Shown here one piece after another: positions 7,615 through 16,764 of a DNA stretch of 26,973 nt; position 1 is the stretch's first letter; each line of letters starts with the position of its first letter. The notes beneath the pieces are model-generated. The model worked only from the letters and a program-made list of their open reading frames with translations, had not been told where the DNA came from and did no database searches. Source of the DNA: a virus; the IMG/VR virus record IMGVR_UViG_3300017763_000147, positions 1-26,973 of that record; one strand, 5' to 3'. The position numbers and the translations under genes are program-made.

Positions 7615-7704
7615 GGAGAGGTGGCTGAGTGGTTGAAAGCACTAGTCTTGAAAACTAGCAATCGTGCAAGCGGTTCGTGGGTTCAAATCCCACCCTCTCC
7701 GCCA
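7615..7704 (+). tRNA. tRNA-Ser(UGA)
   Basis: The full cloverleaf can be drawn. The acceptor stem GGAGAGG/CCTCTCC pairs at all seven positions, the discriminator is G, and the CCA is encoded at 7702-7704. The anticodon stem CTAGT/ACTAG (7642-7646, 7654-7658) encloses the loop CTTGAAA with anticodon TGA at 7649-7651. A long variable arm is typical of serine tRNAs, and a GTGGG/CCCAC T-stem frames TTCAAAT. It would read UCA and probably other UCN codons. It lies 44 nt after the basic mini-protein gene and converges on the integrase gene. Its loop is identical to the centre of the putative attP core at 9170-9176. Confidence 0.95.
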
Positions 7705-7784: not shown

Positions 7785-8993
7785 TTAATTAAATAATACA
7801 GCTTCTAATTTTTTAATATCCTTCATTGCGTTTGGATCACTGAATGTACCATAACCATTTTGTGTAGTGGTATCATTGTGACCAACACGAATAGCAATAG
7901 TCTTAGGATCAACTCCCATCTTTTGCCACTGCGATATAATATATCTACGATACATTTTTGTATCAACAATATCACCAGGTATCTTTGCCTTCTTACATTT
8001 AGCATGCAATAATTCTAAAGTTGTTGAATACGATACAGAAAATAATTCACCTTCTGTAATGTCTTTTTCTTTTACATACTTAGCAAAAGGTTTCATTAAC
8101 TTTGGTGGGATAGGAACTATTCTCTCCCCTTCGTTAGCATCTTCTACTCTAAGATGTGCGGCTTTTGTTACTGAAACTTTACCAGTTCTATAATCTTTAC
8201 TTTTATTAATAGTAACTGTTAGATTACTAAAATCAAAATCTTCCGCACACAATGCAGCAGCTTCACCCCATCTCATACCAGTACAATACTGGATCATCAT
8301 TAAGAATGCACTCTCACATACTTTAGGTTGATGACCTGAGTTATGACCATAATGACCATGTGAATTTGTGCGATGACCATAACCAAAAGAATATTCTAAC
8401 TCATCCCATAATCTATGAGCTTGATTTTCTGTCATAGCAATTACATGCTTAGGTGAATAATCAATCTTTTCTTTTTTATAGGCATGATGCGGAGACACTA
8501 TCCAACTTAATTGCTCTGCTTTTTCTAAAAGATTATTTAATATAGCTCTAACTCTCTTAGCTTTTGATTTACTAAACTTATGTTTAGTTCTCATTTCTTT
8601 TAAAAAAGTATCATACCAATCACTTGTAATAACTTTTAGTGCAGTATTTCCTCCATGAGGTAATATTTTAAATAAAGCTCTTACGTTATCTTCAAGCCTA
8701 CTTTTAGATGATTCTTTCATCCCATCCTTACAAAGAGGATCCTCCTCTTTATTCATAACCTTCACATCCCAATTAGCTTGTAATTTGATATGACAATTAC
8801 TTAAACTATGCATGCCAGCAGTTTGTTTTGCAGCACCTTCATTTTTTAAAAAGCTCTGAGCAGCTTCTTTACATTCAGTTCTAGTCTTACGAAATAATGT
8901 TTTGTATTTAACTTTACCAGTTGGGTAGATCCCATCAGGTACATACACCTTAAACATTTTTTTTCCGTGATTTGTGCAAGCGATAATCTTCAT
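7785..8993 (-). CDS. int: Tyrosine recombinase, phage integrase
   Basis: From ATG 8993 (AAGGAG upstream at a good distance) the product is 402 residues; the frame is open to 9047 without a ribosome site. An N-terminal arm-binding-like region and a SAM-like core-binding domain (about 95-165) precede the catalytic domain. Arg241 lies in YCTGMRWGEAA, Arg349 in TKMYRRYI, His372 in RVGH and the nucleophile Tyr381 in QNGYGTF. The first His of the usual HxxR box appears to be Lys346. A His/Gly-rich insert at ~205-222 (GHRTNSHGHYGHNSGH) is unusual. It should catalyse site-specific integration; the putative attP lies just upstream and probably overlaps its promoter. Confidence 0.92.
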   Translation of the reverse strand: MKIIACTNHGKKMFKVYVPDGIYPTGKVKYKTLFRKTRTECKEAAQSFLKNEGAAKQTAGMHSLSNCHIKLQANWDVKVMNKEEDPLCKDGMKESSKSRLEDNVRALFKILPHGGNTALKVITSDWYDTFLKEMRTKHKFSKSKAKRVRAILNNLLEKAEQLSWIVSPHHAYKKEKIDYSPKHVIAMTENQAHRLWDELEYSFGYGHRTNSHGHYGHNSGHQPKVCESAFLMMIQYCTGMRWGEAAALCAEDFDFSNLTVTINKSKDYRTGKVSVTKAAHLRVEDANEGERIVPIPPKLMKPFAKYVKEKDITEGELFSVSYSTTLELLHAKCKKAKIPGDIVDTKMYRRYIISQWQKMGVDPKTIAIRVGHNDTTTQNGYGTFSDPNAMKDIKKLEAVLFN

Positions 8994-9052
8994 AGTACTT
9001 TCTCCTTTTCTTCTATTTAATATAAGCATTCTGTCATTAAATTGCAAGTTCT

Positions 9053-9233
9053 TGCTAAGGTTTTGCTAAGGATTAGAACAGGAAATCAATAGAATAACAA
9101 TGGTATAGGTATAGTAAAAGTACTGGTTTTCTGGGAAAAACACTAAGCATACTAAGGGTATATGTCGGTCTTGAAAACCGAAAACTTTTTTTGTTTTCTG
9201 CGTGTTTTTTTGCTTGCTAAGGTCGTGCTATGG
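9053..9233. other. attP: Putative attP: core plus paired arm-type repeats
   Basis: The core at 9165-9181 is TCGGT-CTTGAAA-ACCGA, an inverted repeat around a 7-bp centre, the usual layout of tyrosine-integrase crossover sites. Direct-repeat pairs flank it: TGCTAAGG at 9053 and 9064 on one side, and TGCTAAGG at 9215 with TGCTATGG at 9226 on the other. Each pair is spaced 11 bp (one helical turn), as in the paired arm-type sites of phage L5. The centre CTTGAAA and flanking bases (GTCTTGAAAAC) are shared exactly with the anticodon arm of the phage tRNA-Ser(UGA) at 7645-7655. The region is noncoding except for the last codons of the 9217-9606 gene. The attP function is inferred. Confidence 0.65.
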
Positions 9234-14370: not shown

Positions 14371-14637
14371 ATGGTAGGTCGACCATTACGCAAAGTGTTT
14401 TGCAATGCAAGACGCAAGTATGATGGTCAACCTTGCCGTGCAAAAGCAATGCCGAATGGTAAATGTAAATTGCATGGAGGAATGAGCAAAGGTCAGATAA
14501 CATTAGATGGCAAAGTCAAAGCATATAAAAACCTCAAGTACTTCAGACACTGGTCAGTTGATCAAATCAGACAGTACATTGAAGGAAAGTATCCTGATCA
14601 AGTTGATGGAGGGAACACCTCTCACGAAGATCTGTAA
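14371..14637 (+). CDS. HGGxSTG-motif zinc-binding protein
   Basis: From ATG 14371 this encodes 88 residues (a TTG at 14335 lies inside the hairpins). Residues ~11-42 contain CNARRKYDGQPCRAKAM, then GKCKLHGGMSKG. Three cysteines plus the histidine probably bind zinc. The motif is that of the widespread 'HGGxSTG domain' proteins, small proteins often found near phage small terminase genes, function unknown. The last 131 nt overlap the small terminase reading frame. Confidence 0.7.
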   Translation: MVGRPLRKVFCNARRKYDGQPCRAKAMPNGKCKLHGGMSKGQITLDGKVKAYKNLKYFRHWSVDQIRQYIEGKYPDQVDGGNTSHEDL

Positions 14638-14971
14638 GGAAGATAACTTACCAAGTGTAACGAAGGTTTACTCCTGGATGAGTAATGATGAAGACTTTGC
14701 AACACAGGTTAAGACAGCAAGAATGAATGGTGCATTGACGAACCTTGAAGAAGGTTTTGAGGAGATGCAAGAGTTATCAAAGAATAAGAATTTAAGTCAT
14801 GTCGATGTGACTTTGTTGAATACTAAACTGTATCATCTACGTTGGGTTGCTTCTAAGATTATACCGCAGTTCAATGACAAGATGGTGAATGAACACAAAG
14901 GAGATATAAGTTTTAAGATTGGATGGGATGATGGAAAAGACCCATTACTGAACCAGCCAAAAAAACTATAA
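14507..14971 (+). CDS. terS: Terminase small subunit
   Basis: This 154-residue protein has the core ESILIKLMEGTPLTKICKEDNLPSVTKVYSWM followed by EDFATQVKTARMNG, the N-terminal HTH typical of Sf6-like small terminases that recognise packaging sites. A central helix pair (LEEGFEEMQELSKNK, VTLLNTKLYHLRWVASKI) should drive ring oligomerisation. The start is uncertain: ATG 14507 overlaps the HGG gene by 131 nt, and in-frame TTG 14558, TTG 14579 or ATG 14606 would shorten the overlap. It works with TerL, which is encoded after a regulatory gap and two small ORFs. Confidence 0.75.
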   Translation: MAKSKHIKTSSTSDTGQLIKSDSTLKESILIKLMEGTPLTKICKEDNLPSVTKVYSWMSNDEDFATQVKTARMNGALTNLEEGFEEMQELSKNKNLSHVDVTLLNTKLYHLRWVASKIIPQFNDKMVNEHKGDISFKIGWDDGKDPLLNQPKKL

Positions 14972-15184
14972 TGCACGCATCAAGAGGTTCTTAAACAAAA
15001 CCTTAGCATATCCATAGCAATTTATTTTTTTGTTTGTTTTCTGCGGATCATGTCGGTGTTTGAAACCAGAAGGGTATAGCGTTGCCAGGATAAATATTTA
15101 TTTTGCCTAGCGTTACTGCCATTTTTTTTCAGATCTAGGTGCGTAGTACCCCCCAAAAACACCTGGCTGGGTATTATAGTATAT
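14972..15184. other. Noncoding gap before the terminase operon
   Basis: This is the largest gap in the rightward late region (213 nt). It holds the att-like half site (15001-15069), two copies of TAGCGTT (15077 and 15108), a T8 run, a C6 run and an AT-rich TATTATAGTATATATG immediately upstream of the 15185 start that could supply a -10 element. A packaging (cos/pac) site or late promoter could lie here. No ORF of note is seen. Confidence 0.5.
15001..15069. other. Mirror-image att-like half site
   Basis: CCATAGCA and CCTTAGCA (reverse complements of the arm repeats TGCTATGG and TGCTAAGG), 11 bp apart at 15001-15019, are followed after exactly 33 bases by TCGGT-GTTTGAA-ACCAG (15053-15069). The putative attP has the same parts at the same 33-base distance in opposite orientation. 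Both spacers also contain TTTGTTTTCTGCG (9190-9202 and 15033-15045). The second arm pair is missing here. The function is unknown: decoy, regulatory or remnant att site. Confidence 0.6.
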
Positions 15185-15382
15185 ATGTCCCATCTTGAAG
15201 CTACAGCCATGTACGAACAATTATATTCAACCATAGACATAAACGAAAAAGAAAAAAAAATTATAATAGAATTTTCTGGTTTTGATACCACCCAAGAATG
15301 TGAGGAGTTCGTCAGAGATCTTGCACAGTTTTTTTCATTCAGCAGTATTAATCATCATGTCAAAAATCAAACAATCCACTGA
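15185..15382 (+). CDS. Small acidic phage protein
   Basis: This 65-residue ORF contains INEKEKKIIIEFSGFDTTQECEEFVRDLAQFF. A beta strand plus helix of this kind (IIIEFSGF...ECEEF) is typical of small conserved phage proteins near terminase genes. It is not assigned to a named family. It follows an AT-rich promoter-like stretch without a clear ribosome site, so in-frame ATG 15209 is possible. It overlaps the next gene by 26 nt. Confidence 0.55.
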   Translation: MSHLEATAMYEQLYSTIDINEKEKKIIIEFSGFDTTQECEEFVRDLAQFFSFSSINHHVKNQTIH

Positions 15383-15539
15383 GATACCAAAAGAAGATTA
15401 TAAAAAATTAAAAGGAATAGCAGATTTCTTATCAGAAGGTTTCACTATTGGAGAAGACAAGACAGTCTGGAAAATAAATGTCAGAAAAAAAAATAATAAT
15501 ACCATATCATCCAAGAGAACCACAAAGACAAATACATGA
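15357..15539 (+). CDS. Small protein overlapping the terL start
   Basis: From ATG 15357 this encodes 60 residues: IPKEDYKKLKGIADFLSEGF, then VWKINVRKK and a low-complexity Lys/Thr tail. The first 40 residues look like a genuine folded segment. The tail, encoded within the first 62 nt of terL, is probably shaped by that frame. Function unknown. Overlap on both sides is consistent with translational coupling into terL. Confidence 0.5.
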   Translation: MSKIKQSTEIPKEDYKKLKGIADFLSEGFTIGEDKTVWKINVRKKNNNTISSKRTTKTNT

Positions 15540-16764
15540 AGCTCTTGATGATTATAGGTTCGCTGTAATTATTGCACATCGCAGACTAGGAAAAAGTTTG
15601 AGTGCGATCCTACATTTAATAAAGTTTGCTTTTACACATACTTTACCAAATGTAAGAATGGCTTATGTAGCACCACAATTTAAACAAGCTAAGTCTATTG
15701 CCTGGGATTATGTAAAACAATTTACAAAAGAAATACCAGGAATGAAATATAACGAAACTGAGCTTCGTTGTGACTTTCCTAATGGAGCTAGATTAACCTT
15801 ATATGGTGTTGATAGTAATCCTGATGCACTGCGTGGAAACTATTTTGATTTCTGTGTAATGGATGAGGTGCAGCTAATAGACGAAACTATCTTTCCTAAA
15901 GTAATATTGCCAAGTTTGGCAGATAGAAAAGGAAAATGTTTATTTATTGGAACGCCACGATCAACGAGGAACTACCTCTATGAATTATATAAAAAAGCCA
16001 AAGCTGACCCCTCCTGGTTTTGTAAAGTTTTTAAAGCCAGTGAAACAAATATTATAGAGCCAATAGAACTCAAGCAGCTAAAGAACAACATGACCGATGA
16101 GGAATATCGGCAAGAGCTAGAATGTGACTTCTCCGCAGCCATTAATGGTTCGATCTATGGAAAGATTATGGATAAGCTGGATGGAGAAAACAGAATAAAA
16201 GATATAAATGTAGACCCTGGCTACCCAGTACATACAGCCTGGGATCTAGGAATAAGTGACAGTACCACGATTATATTTTTTCAAGAAATTGGAAGGCAAT
16301 TATACTTTGTTGATTGTCTATCTAAATCTGGAGAAGGATTACCCTGGTTTATTAAATATATAAAAGATGAAAAGGATTATGTGTATGGCAATCACTATGC
16401 ACCCCATGACATCGAACAACGAGATTTCTCTAATGGTTTATCCAGGAGAGAGGTAGCTTATCAATTAGGAGTACGTTTTAAAGTTGCTCCCAAGCTGCCA
16501 GTAGAAGAAGGCATTCATATGACAAGCATGATGTTGCAACGAGCTTATTTTGATGCAAAGAAATGCGAATTGTTAATAGATGCACTTAGACACTACCATC
16601 GCAAGTGGTCAGTGAATAATAAATTTTTCTCAAAACCAGTACACGATTGGAGTTCACATTTTTGTGATGCTGCACGAACTGCATCCGTTTCCTTAAAAGA
16701 AGGTACAAGCGGAAAACAACCGCCACAACAGATGGCACAAAACGAATACACAGTATTTGCATAG
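15478..16764 (+). CDS. terL: Terminase large subunit
   Basis: This 428-residue packaging motor has its ATPase motifs in order: Walker A AHRRLGKS (33-40), Walker B FCVMDE with Asp129/Glu130, and coupling motif FIGTP (156-160). The RNase H-like nuclease domain shows Asp256 (AWDLGISD), Asp279, Asp311 (APHD) and Asp397 near the C-terminus (DWSSHFCDAAR). It translocates phage DNA into the prohead through the portal and cuts concatemers. Length and motifs are normal for podoviral TerL. It is followed by small linker genes and the portal. Confidence 0.95.
   Translation: MSEKKIIIPYHPREPQRQIHEALDDYRFAVIIAHRRLGKSLSAILHLIKFAFTHTLPNVRMAYVAPQFKQAKSIAWDYVKQFTKEIPGMKYNETELRCDFPNGARLTLYGVDSNPDALRGNYFDFCVMDEVQLIDETIFPKVILPSLADRKGKCLFIGTPRSTRNYLYELYKKAKADPSWFCKVFKASETNIIEPIELKQLKNNMTDEEYRQELECDFSAAINGSIYGKIMDKLDGENRIKDINVDPGYPVHTAWDLGISDSTTIIFFQEIGRQLYFVDCLSKSGEGLPWFIKYIKDEKDYVYGNHYAPHDIEQRDFSNGLSRREVAYQLGVRFKVAPKLPVEEGIHMTSMMLQRAYFDAKKCELLIDALRHYHRKWSVNNKFFSKPVHDWSSHFCDAARTASVSLKEGTSGKQPPQQMAQNEYTVFA

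Follow-up and report, generated by a model that had tools for sequence, protein, structure and literature searches.

Between the genes for the small and large terminase subunits (terS and terL) of a temperate HTVC010P-like phage lies an element, hereafter site 2, which is very probably bound by the phage's own integrase (Int). Its build is attL-like (core plus P' arm), a complete core being accompanied by tandem arms on a single side, and in phages with unrelated integrases a corresponding element is found with other arms and another core. On the strength of sequence comparison, site 2 probably does an unrecognised second job for the integrase. It could well be an accessory attachment-type site through which Int controls the TerS/TerL junction, a reading that we put forward tentatively, at slightly less than an even chance.

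The window, by which we mean the whole stretch of DNA analysed here, comprises the 26,973 bases of an IMG/VR virus record that is classed as linear, and is a fragment of such a temperate phage. The DNA of its major capsid gene is ~73% identical to that of pelagiphages HTVC035P and Lederberg, and its TerL is ~50% identical to TerL of HTVC010P-type pelagiphages. The gap between TerS and TerL measures 506 bases. For int, the ATG at 8993, preceded by AGGAG, is a likelier start than the TTG of the longest open reading frame. The AlphaFold model of the window Int had a mean pLDDT of 42.7; in a sequence search against solved structures, integrases of the HTVC028P class matched the tyrosine recombinases 3nkh and 6emy. 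The features of the window are listed in Table 1.

Table 1. Features of the window around int, attP, the terminase genes and site 2
Feature	Position	Strand	Details
Phage tRNA-Ser(TGA)	7615..7704	+	Complete, beside int; anticodon stem AGT/ACT instead of GGT/ACC
Tyrosine integrase (int)	7785..9047	-	Phage_integrase PF00589, E 9e-9; longest ORF, from TTG
int promoter-like -35/-10	9047-9019	-	Adjoins attP P arms
attP P arm pair	9053..9071	+	Next to int -35/-10
attP core	9165..9181	+	TCGGT-CTTGAAA-ACCGA; overlap = anticodon loop of host tRNA-Ser(TGA)
attP P' arm pair	9215..9233	+	
Terminase small subunit (TerS, Sf6 type)	14507..14971	+	PF20901, E 7e-14
GC-richer motif directly after TerS	14972..14991	+	TGCACGCATCAAGAGGTTCT (most relatives ..CATCATGAGGTT..)
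Site 2 arm pair	15001..15019	-	Two tandem TGCTAWGG 11 bp apart (minus strand TGCTATGGATATGCTAAGG)
Site 2 A/T-rich spacer	15020..15052		33 bases, same length at attP; holds 13-mer 15033-15045
Site 2 core	15053..15069		Half-site TCGGT, 7-bp overlap GTTTGAA, half-site ACCAG
Terminase large subunit (TerL)	15478..16764	+	PF03237

The earlier note on this DNA had described an inverted arm pair and a core-like sequence with the same 33-base spacing as at attP, and both the elements and the exact spacing (15020-15052 at site 2, 9182-9214 at attP) were confirmed. Its term 'half site' is apt for the arms, which stand on one side only, but not for the core, which is complete and has both half-sites. The window contains three arm pairs with up to two mismatches, where shuffles give an expectation of 0.02, and TCGGT-N7-ACC without mismatch is found there only at attP (on both strands) and at site 2; the arm-pair count and the uniqueness of the core exclude chance in the window. 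The 13-mer TTTGTTTTCTGCG, which the note had seen in both spacers, is indeed exact at 9190 and 15033 only. However, it runs in the same direction at attP and site 2, although the arms are inverted; furthermore, the relative L044 is without it at both sites, and L067/L068 retain it at site 2 while the attP of L067's contig is without it. Being neither inverted with the arms nor conserved, the 13-mer is not an essential part of site 2, and it is the shared geometry of the two sites that matters.

At attP, arm pairs flank the core on both sides, as is the case for Int arm sites. The sequence GGTCTTGAAAACC was present in 227 of 297 Pelagibacterales genomes; among 11 host loci inspected, eight were tRNA-Ser genes with GGT/ACC around the loop, and three had another context (L179, L181, L182). 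The phage tRNA-Ser(TGA) beside int is found also in the relatives L003, L044, L005 and L006, and in all five contigs, the window included, it reads AGT-CTTGAAA-ACT. The stem change is compensated and takes away the GGT/ACC half-sites, and it would hide the phage's tRNA gene from its own Int. The window attP thus combines a short anticodon-loop core with a phage tRNA of the same isotype, which, for a pelagiphage, reads as the hallmark of tRNA-dependent lysogeny. The mycobacteriophage systems of this type (PMC10865867) resemble it in both respects, their short anticodon-loop core likewise not rebuilding the tRNA; the likeness concerns the window attP and not site 2, and the accessible part of that article mentions no second site. 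No prophage with the window Int was found in the genome collection searched. It should be added that a block ACTGGTTTTCTGGGAAAAAC at 9127-9145, between the P arms and the attP core, is strongly conserved in the alignment and may be an extra core-like site or a site for an accessory protein. Degenerate extra core-like sequences also lie upstream of int in HTVC028P, G026, G030, G021, G029 and G003 (AGAGTAGTTGACTG; AGAGTAGTTGACC, the latter ~45 bases before int), and are possible sites of integrase autoregulation.

The earlier note had named absence of the site from close relatives with a conserved attP as an outcome that would speak against it, and the comparison came out in favour of the site: the element is present in both related contigs that cover attP as well as the gap, and in all nine contigs of the window Int/TerS class covering the TerS-TerL gap (the window, L044, L007/L067, L010, L017, L031, L040, L063 and L068). 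It is likewise found in relatives with Int 72-76% identical (L003 and L006, with stops inside the ranges quoted, were left out of the protein alignment). In the relatives' cores GGT and ACC are kept seven bases apart while the overlap varies, with drift even between close relatives (GTTTGAA versus GTTCGTA in L068). L044 differs from the window in its arms and in one base flanking the core, and these changes run in parallel at the two sites, attP and site 2. In L069/L070, which are more distant, the arm pair is another one, ATGCTACA, with a spacing of 12 bp, and the core is GCGGT-TGTGATA-ACCGA. The proposal that site 2 is an inversion partner of attP around the early region could appeal to the inverted arms and to the half-site TCGGT common to both; against it, attP, the early module and site 2 keep one relative orientation in 3/3 spanning contigs (window, L044, L007/L067), the overlaps differ in every phage, and comparison of relatives revealed no identity break at site 2, which makes it highly improbable. 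An invertible segment or an exchange of modules was rejected on the same orientation and identity data.

Phages with other integrases were reached by a scan with a TerS profile, from which the best 80 of 116 confirmed loci were taken. A tyrosine integrase was found in 13 of the 36 records searched from these loci, mostly chosen for length; with HTVC028P, the window and L004 this gave 16 int-bearing contigs, of which 15 were scored and G021, ending inside the gap, was dropped. At least five integrase groups are represented, and Int sequences from different groups are 11-23% identical; how far int lies from terS, and in which orientation, varies from family to family. In the tandem-motif test, the 260 bases that follow TerS were scored for a tandem 8-mer enriched in the kilobase upstream of int, every other such stretch of the same genome serving as control. 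The gap scored above every control in 10 of 15 contigs (the window, L004, G002, G003, G008, G023, G026, G029, G030 and HTVC028P, with low scores for G002 and G023), and the test was not passed by G013, G014, G016, G018 and G020.

When the arm motifs were compared as a matrix, each gap carried the motif of its own phage, with those of other families absent: TGCTAWGG in the window and L004; ATTCACTA in HTVC028P, G026 and G030; TTGYACCR in G003, G008 and G029, the near-identical G003 and G008 counting as non-independent; and GGTAGCAT in G002. Since these motifs were chosen after viewing both places, the matrix shows specificity and is no independent test. An instructive case is G029, whose TerS is closest to that of HTVC028P (76% versus 71% and 68%) and whose arms read TTGCACC at attP and in the gap alike, where HTVC028P, G026 and G030 have ATTCACTA. 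Repeats for TerS binding were rejected as an explanation, as the motif tracks Int and not TerS. The core-like sequence, for its part, follows the tRNA target, with AGAGTAGTTGA in the tRNA-Asn class and AGAGCGCTGGA in one tRNA-Met phage. Excisionase/Cox-type and repressor proteins control phage promoters, and the arms adjoin promoter-like sequence at int too, so that the tandem motif might be bound by such an int-linked protein regulating int and the terminase operon; this is rather improbable, because a core-like sequence that follows the tRNA target at a fixed distance points to Int, as do the arm pairs on both sides of attP.

In the pair-to-pair test, a fixed comparison of gap and control stretches in 20 genomes, at most 5% of controls reached the gap in 13 genomes, and none did so in eight; marginal values were obtained for G002 (6.7% of controls), G016 (7.5%) and G091 (8.2%). 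The genomes that failed, G013, G018, G020 and G023, represent one Int family, with a tRNA-Ser 3' half at attP and, in the gap, single copies of GACAACCCA or of a variant; G013 and G018 also have shared 16-mers. A site 2 of different form, amounting at most to a weak version with one arm, may be present in this family, which was not counted. The simple shared-k-mer and longest-shared-word tests were mostly not significant in this A/T-rich DNA. Weak plain shared-word tests, together with short motifs and A/T-rich sequence, speak for chance or a decaying remnant of an old att site, yet in the classes of the window and of HTVC028P this is refuted; against it stand the arm-pair statistics, the tandem-motif and pair-to-pair tests, the motif matrix, the prophage gaps described below and the geometry. 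The remnant, which had been listed among the early options, is moreover hardly credible for an element that is maintained and rewritten with each Int. In the int-less isolates HTVC010P, HTVC034P, HTVC035P and Lederberg, no such arm pair was seen by eye upstream of TerL, and their TerS does not adjoin TerL.

Integrated relatives were found in SAR11. TerL was present in six of 397 genomes drawn from the order Pelagibacterales and in G037 and G039 among three genomes reached via the integrase, G039 being also one of the six; Int and TerS-TerL occurred together in five regions (G209, G239, G245, G091 and G416). In these five prophages, fetched after the hypothesis had been formed, Int adjoins a gene or gene half of tRNA-Asn, tRNA-Asp, tRNA-Met (G245 and G091) or tRNA-Ser(GCT), and all five gaps hold an arm pair that by eye resembles the one at int. 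HTVC010P-type prophages or junctions in SAR11 comprise L171 and L172 besides these five, and all lie at tRNA-Asn, tRNA-Asp, tRNA-Met and tRNA-Ser(GCT) genes.

The geometry of site 2 was measured at 16 sites, with arms and cores outside the window class assigned by eye or by the best tRNA-arm match and the cores of G003, G091 and G245 uncertain. Arm copies are 10-12 bp apart, and the start of the last arm lies 41-45 bp from the core in 15/16 sites (in G091 36, or 41 using the second arm). The inverted half-sites agree at 5/5 positions in G209, G029 and G239, at 2-4/5 in twelve cores and at 0/5 in G003, the frame of which is uncertain. In the tRNA-Asn class, ten loci whose cores differ all have TTGA as the proximal half-site and mostly TCAA as the distal one, with overlaps that vary. 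Arms turning over with unrelated integrases, cores following the tRNA and the fixed arm-core distance are best explained by binding of Int, which also supports the idea, first drawn from the equal spacing, that the same protein complex would assemble at both sites.

Lambda-type attachment sites have a core of inverted half-sites around an overlap of 6-8 bp; site 2 has such a core, with an overlap of 7 bp, and arm repeats in common with attP of the same phage, save by the pair-to-pair test in the family of G013, G018, G020 and G023. An overlap identical to that of a recombination partner (attB/attP) was found in 0/14 sites: between site 2 and the att site of the same phage, 1-5 of the 7 overlap bases are alike, never all seven. 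These 14 are the sites with a known own att overlap, read for prophages from the tRNA at the junction; the attP of L067 is on the same contig (L007), and that of G039 in L172 from the same genome. Because its overlap matches no partner, site 2 is not classed as a working attP, attL or attB, and the early suggestion that strand exchange with attP may be blocked agrees with these counts. In the tRNA-Asn class, attB has A at overlap position 6 (tRNA position 37), where all distinct cores listed have C or T. A second attP for another tRNA was rejected on this ground for that class and, more generally, because the overlaps are no conserved loop and differ between close relatives; a satellite attB was rejected because site 2 has arm sites. 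That the mismatch is permanent suggests that recombination with attP, att junctions or tRNA genes is selected against.

A mismatched overlap would equally separate from integration a site that recombines with itself alone, in the manner of P1 loxP. Where a linear genome with terminal redundancy, a concatemer or a dimer contains site 2 twice, Int would then recombine the two copies and so circularise or resolve the genome. The full core and 7-bp overlap are kept, seemingly beyond the needs of simple binding, the half-sites of G209, G029 and G239 are perfect, and the overlap drift among close relatives is as expected if self-match alone counts. Moreover, site 2 always lies directly after terS, the place at which Sf6/P22-type phages start packaging. 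P1 loxP is situated beside pac and is not known to have arm-type sites, nor its Cre a role in integration. Site 2 would be similar in being a recombinase site near a presumed packaging start and separate from chromosomal integration; it differs in having arm-type sites and an Int that integrates, and in that its recombination is only putative. As the arms are on a single side, some distal half-sites are poor (2 of 5 in HTVC028P) and no recombination junctions were seen, we consider such a self-recombining site unlikely. We are similarly doubtful that one Int conducts two separate reactions, attP x attB and site 2 x site 2, the latter circularising or resolving the genome by the packaging start; if true, mismatched overlaps would separate the two, and site 2 would be rebuilt at each Int swap.

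Compared with attP and attL of lambda type, site 2 has the same tandem arm repeats one helical turn apart, inverted half-sites with a 7-bp overlap and a fixed arm-core distance, and its one-sided arms are those of attL; unlike them it lies away from int, between terminase genes, and its overlap matches neither attB nor attP. Lambda-type integrases are bivalent, having arm- and core-binding domains. With this bivalence, the attL-like build and the fixed geometry, Int might bridge site 2 to attP or to attL/attR without strand exchange at site 2, a ~5.9 kb loop in the window, and thereby control direction or timing of integration and excision. This is improbable, for the distance and orientation between int and terS vary by family, which would not be expected under strict looping.

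That the job of site 2 is regulatory rather than recombination is, to our judgement, nearly an even call, and the best remaining option appears to be one of the first suggestions made for this DNA, that of a regulatory site for Int close to the packaging genes. The choice rests on the fact that the P arms in the window adjoin the promoter-like sequence of int and on a precedent, KplE1, where IntS represses int from attL (PMC2951348). The likeness consists in Int binding to an attL-type site as a transcription control, as proposed for site 2; the difference is that KplE1 has a real recombination junction at the int promoter, while site 2 is separate, locked and at the terminase operon. In the regulatory reading, Int would bind site 2 through both its DNA-binding domains, and the mismatched overlap would prevent recombination with attP, attL/attR and host tRNA genes. 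With Int bound, site 2 would serve as a cis-acting control where early genes give way to late ones, lowering or timing the read-through that passes from terS to terL and the late genes while Int is abundant, that is, during establishment of lysogeny and in the prophage state. Within site 2 of the window no promoter consensus was found, nor was a terminator found in its TerS-TerL gap, and a conserved promoter-like stretch lies farther downstream, so that direct occlusion by bound Int is not evident.

In phages whose hosts are the most abundant bacteria of the ocean, a cis element outside attP that tracks unrelated integrases would amount to a second, selected job of Int at the terminase genes, and makes a link between lysogeny and packaging directly testable. 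Furthermore, an arm pair with a locked core between terS and terL may serve as a DNA signature from which Int arm and att sites can be read from fragments. In the open-access literature searched, no description of such a site between terminase genes was found; the lambda-type build is known, and the position, lock and turnover of site 2 are not described there.

Several minor observations concern the same gap. The GC-richer motif directly after TerS (..GTCATGAGGTT.. or ..CATGGAGTTCG..) is kept over most families regardless of Int, and at 14972-14991 it is a candidate packaging or TerS-binding site. Unusually long gaps between TerS and TerL, possibly holding inserted genes, were seen in G416 (2118 bases), L101 (1718) and both L132 and L133 (1570). 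Upstream of TerL in HTVC028P (L074 gap), TAATACGATTAATTATAGG resembles a T7-type promoter. Finally, a C-run followed by a TATA-rich stretch precedes TerL in the window (~15140-15190), G013, G018 and HTVC010P; this promoter-like stretch is common to lytic and temperate phages and is a possible late promoter.
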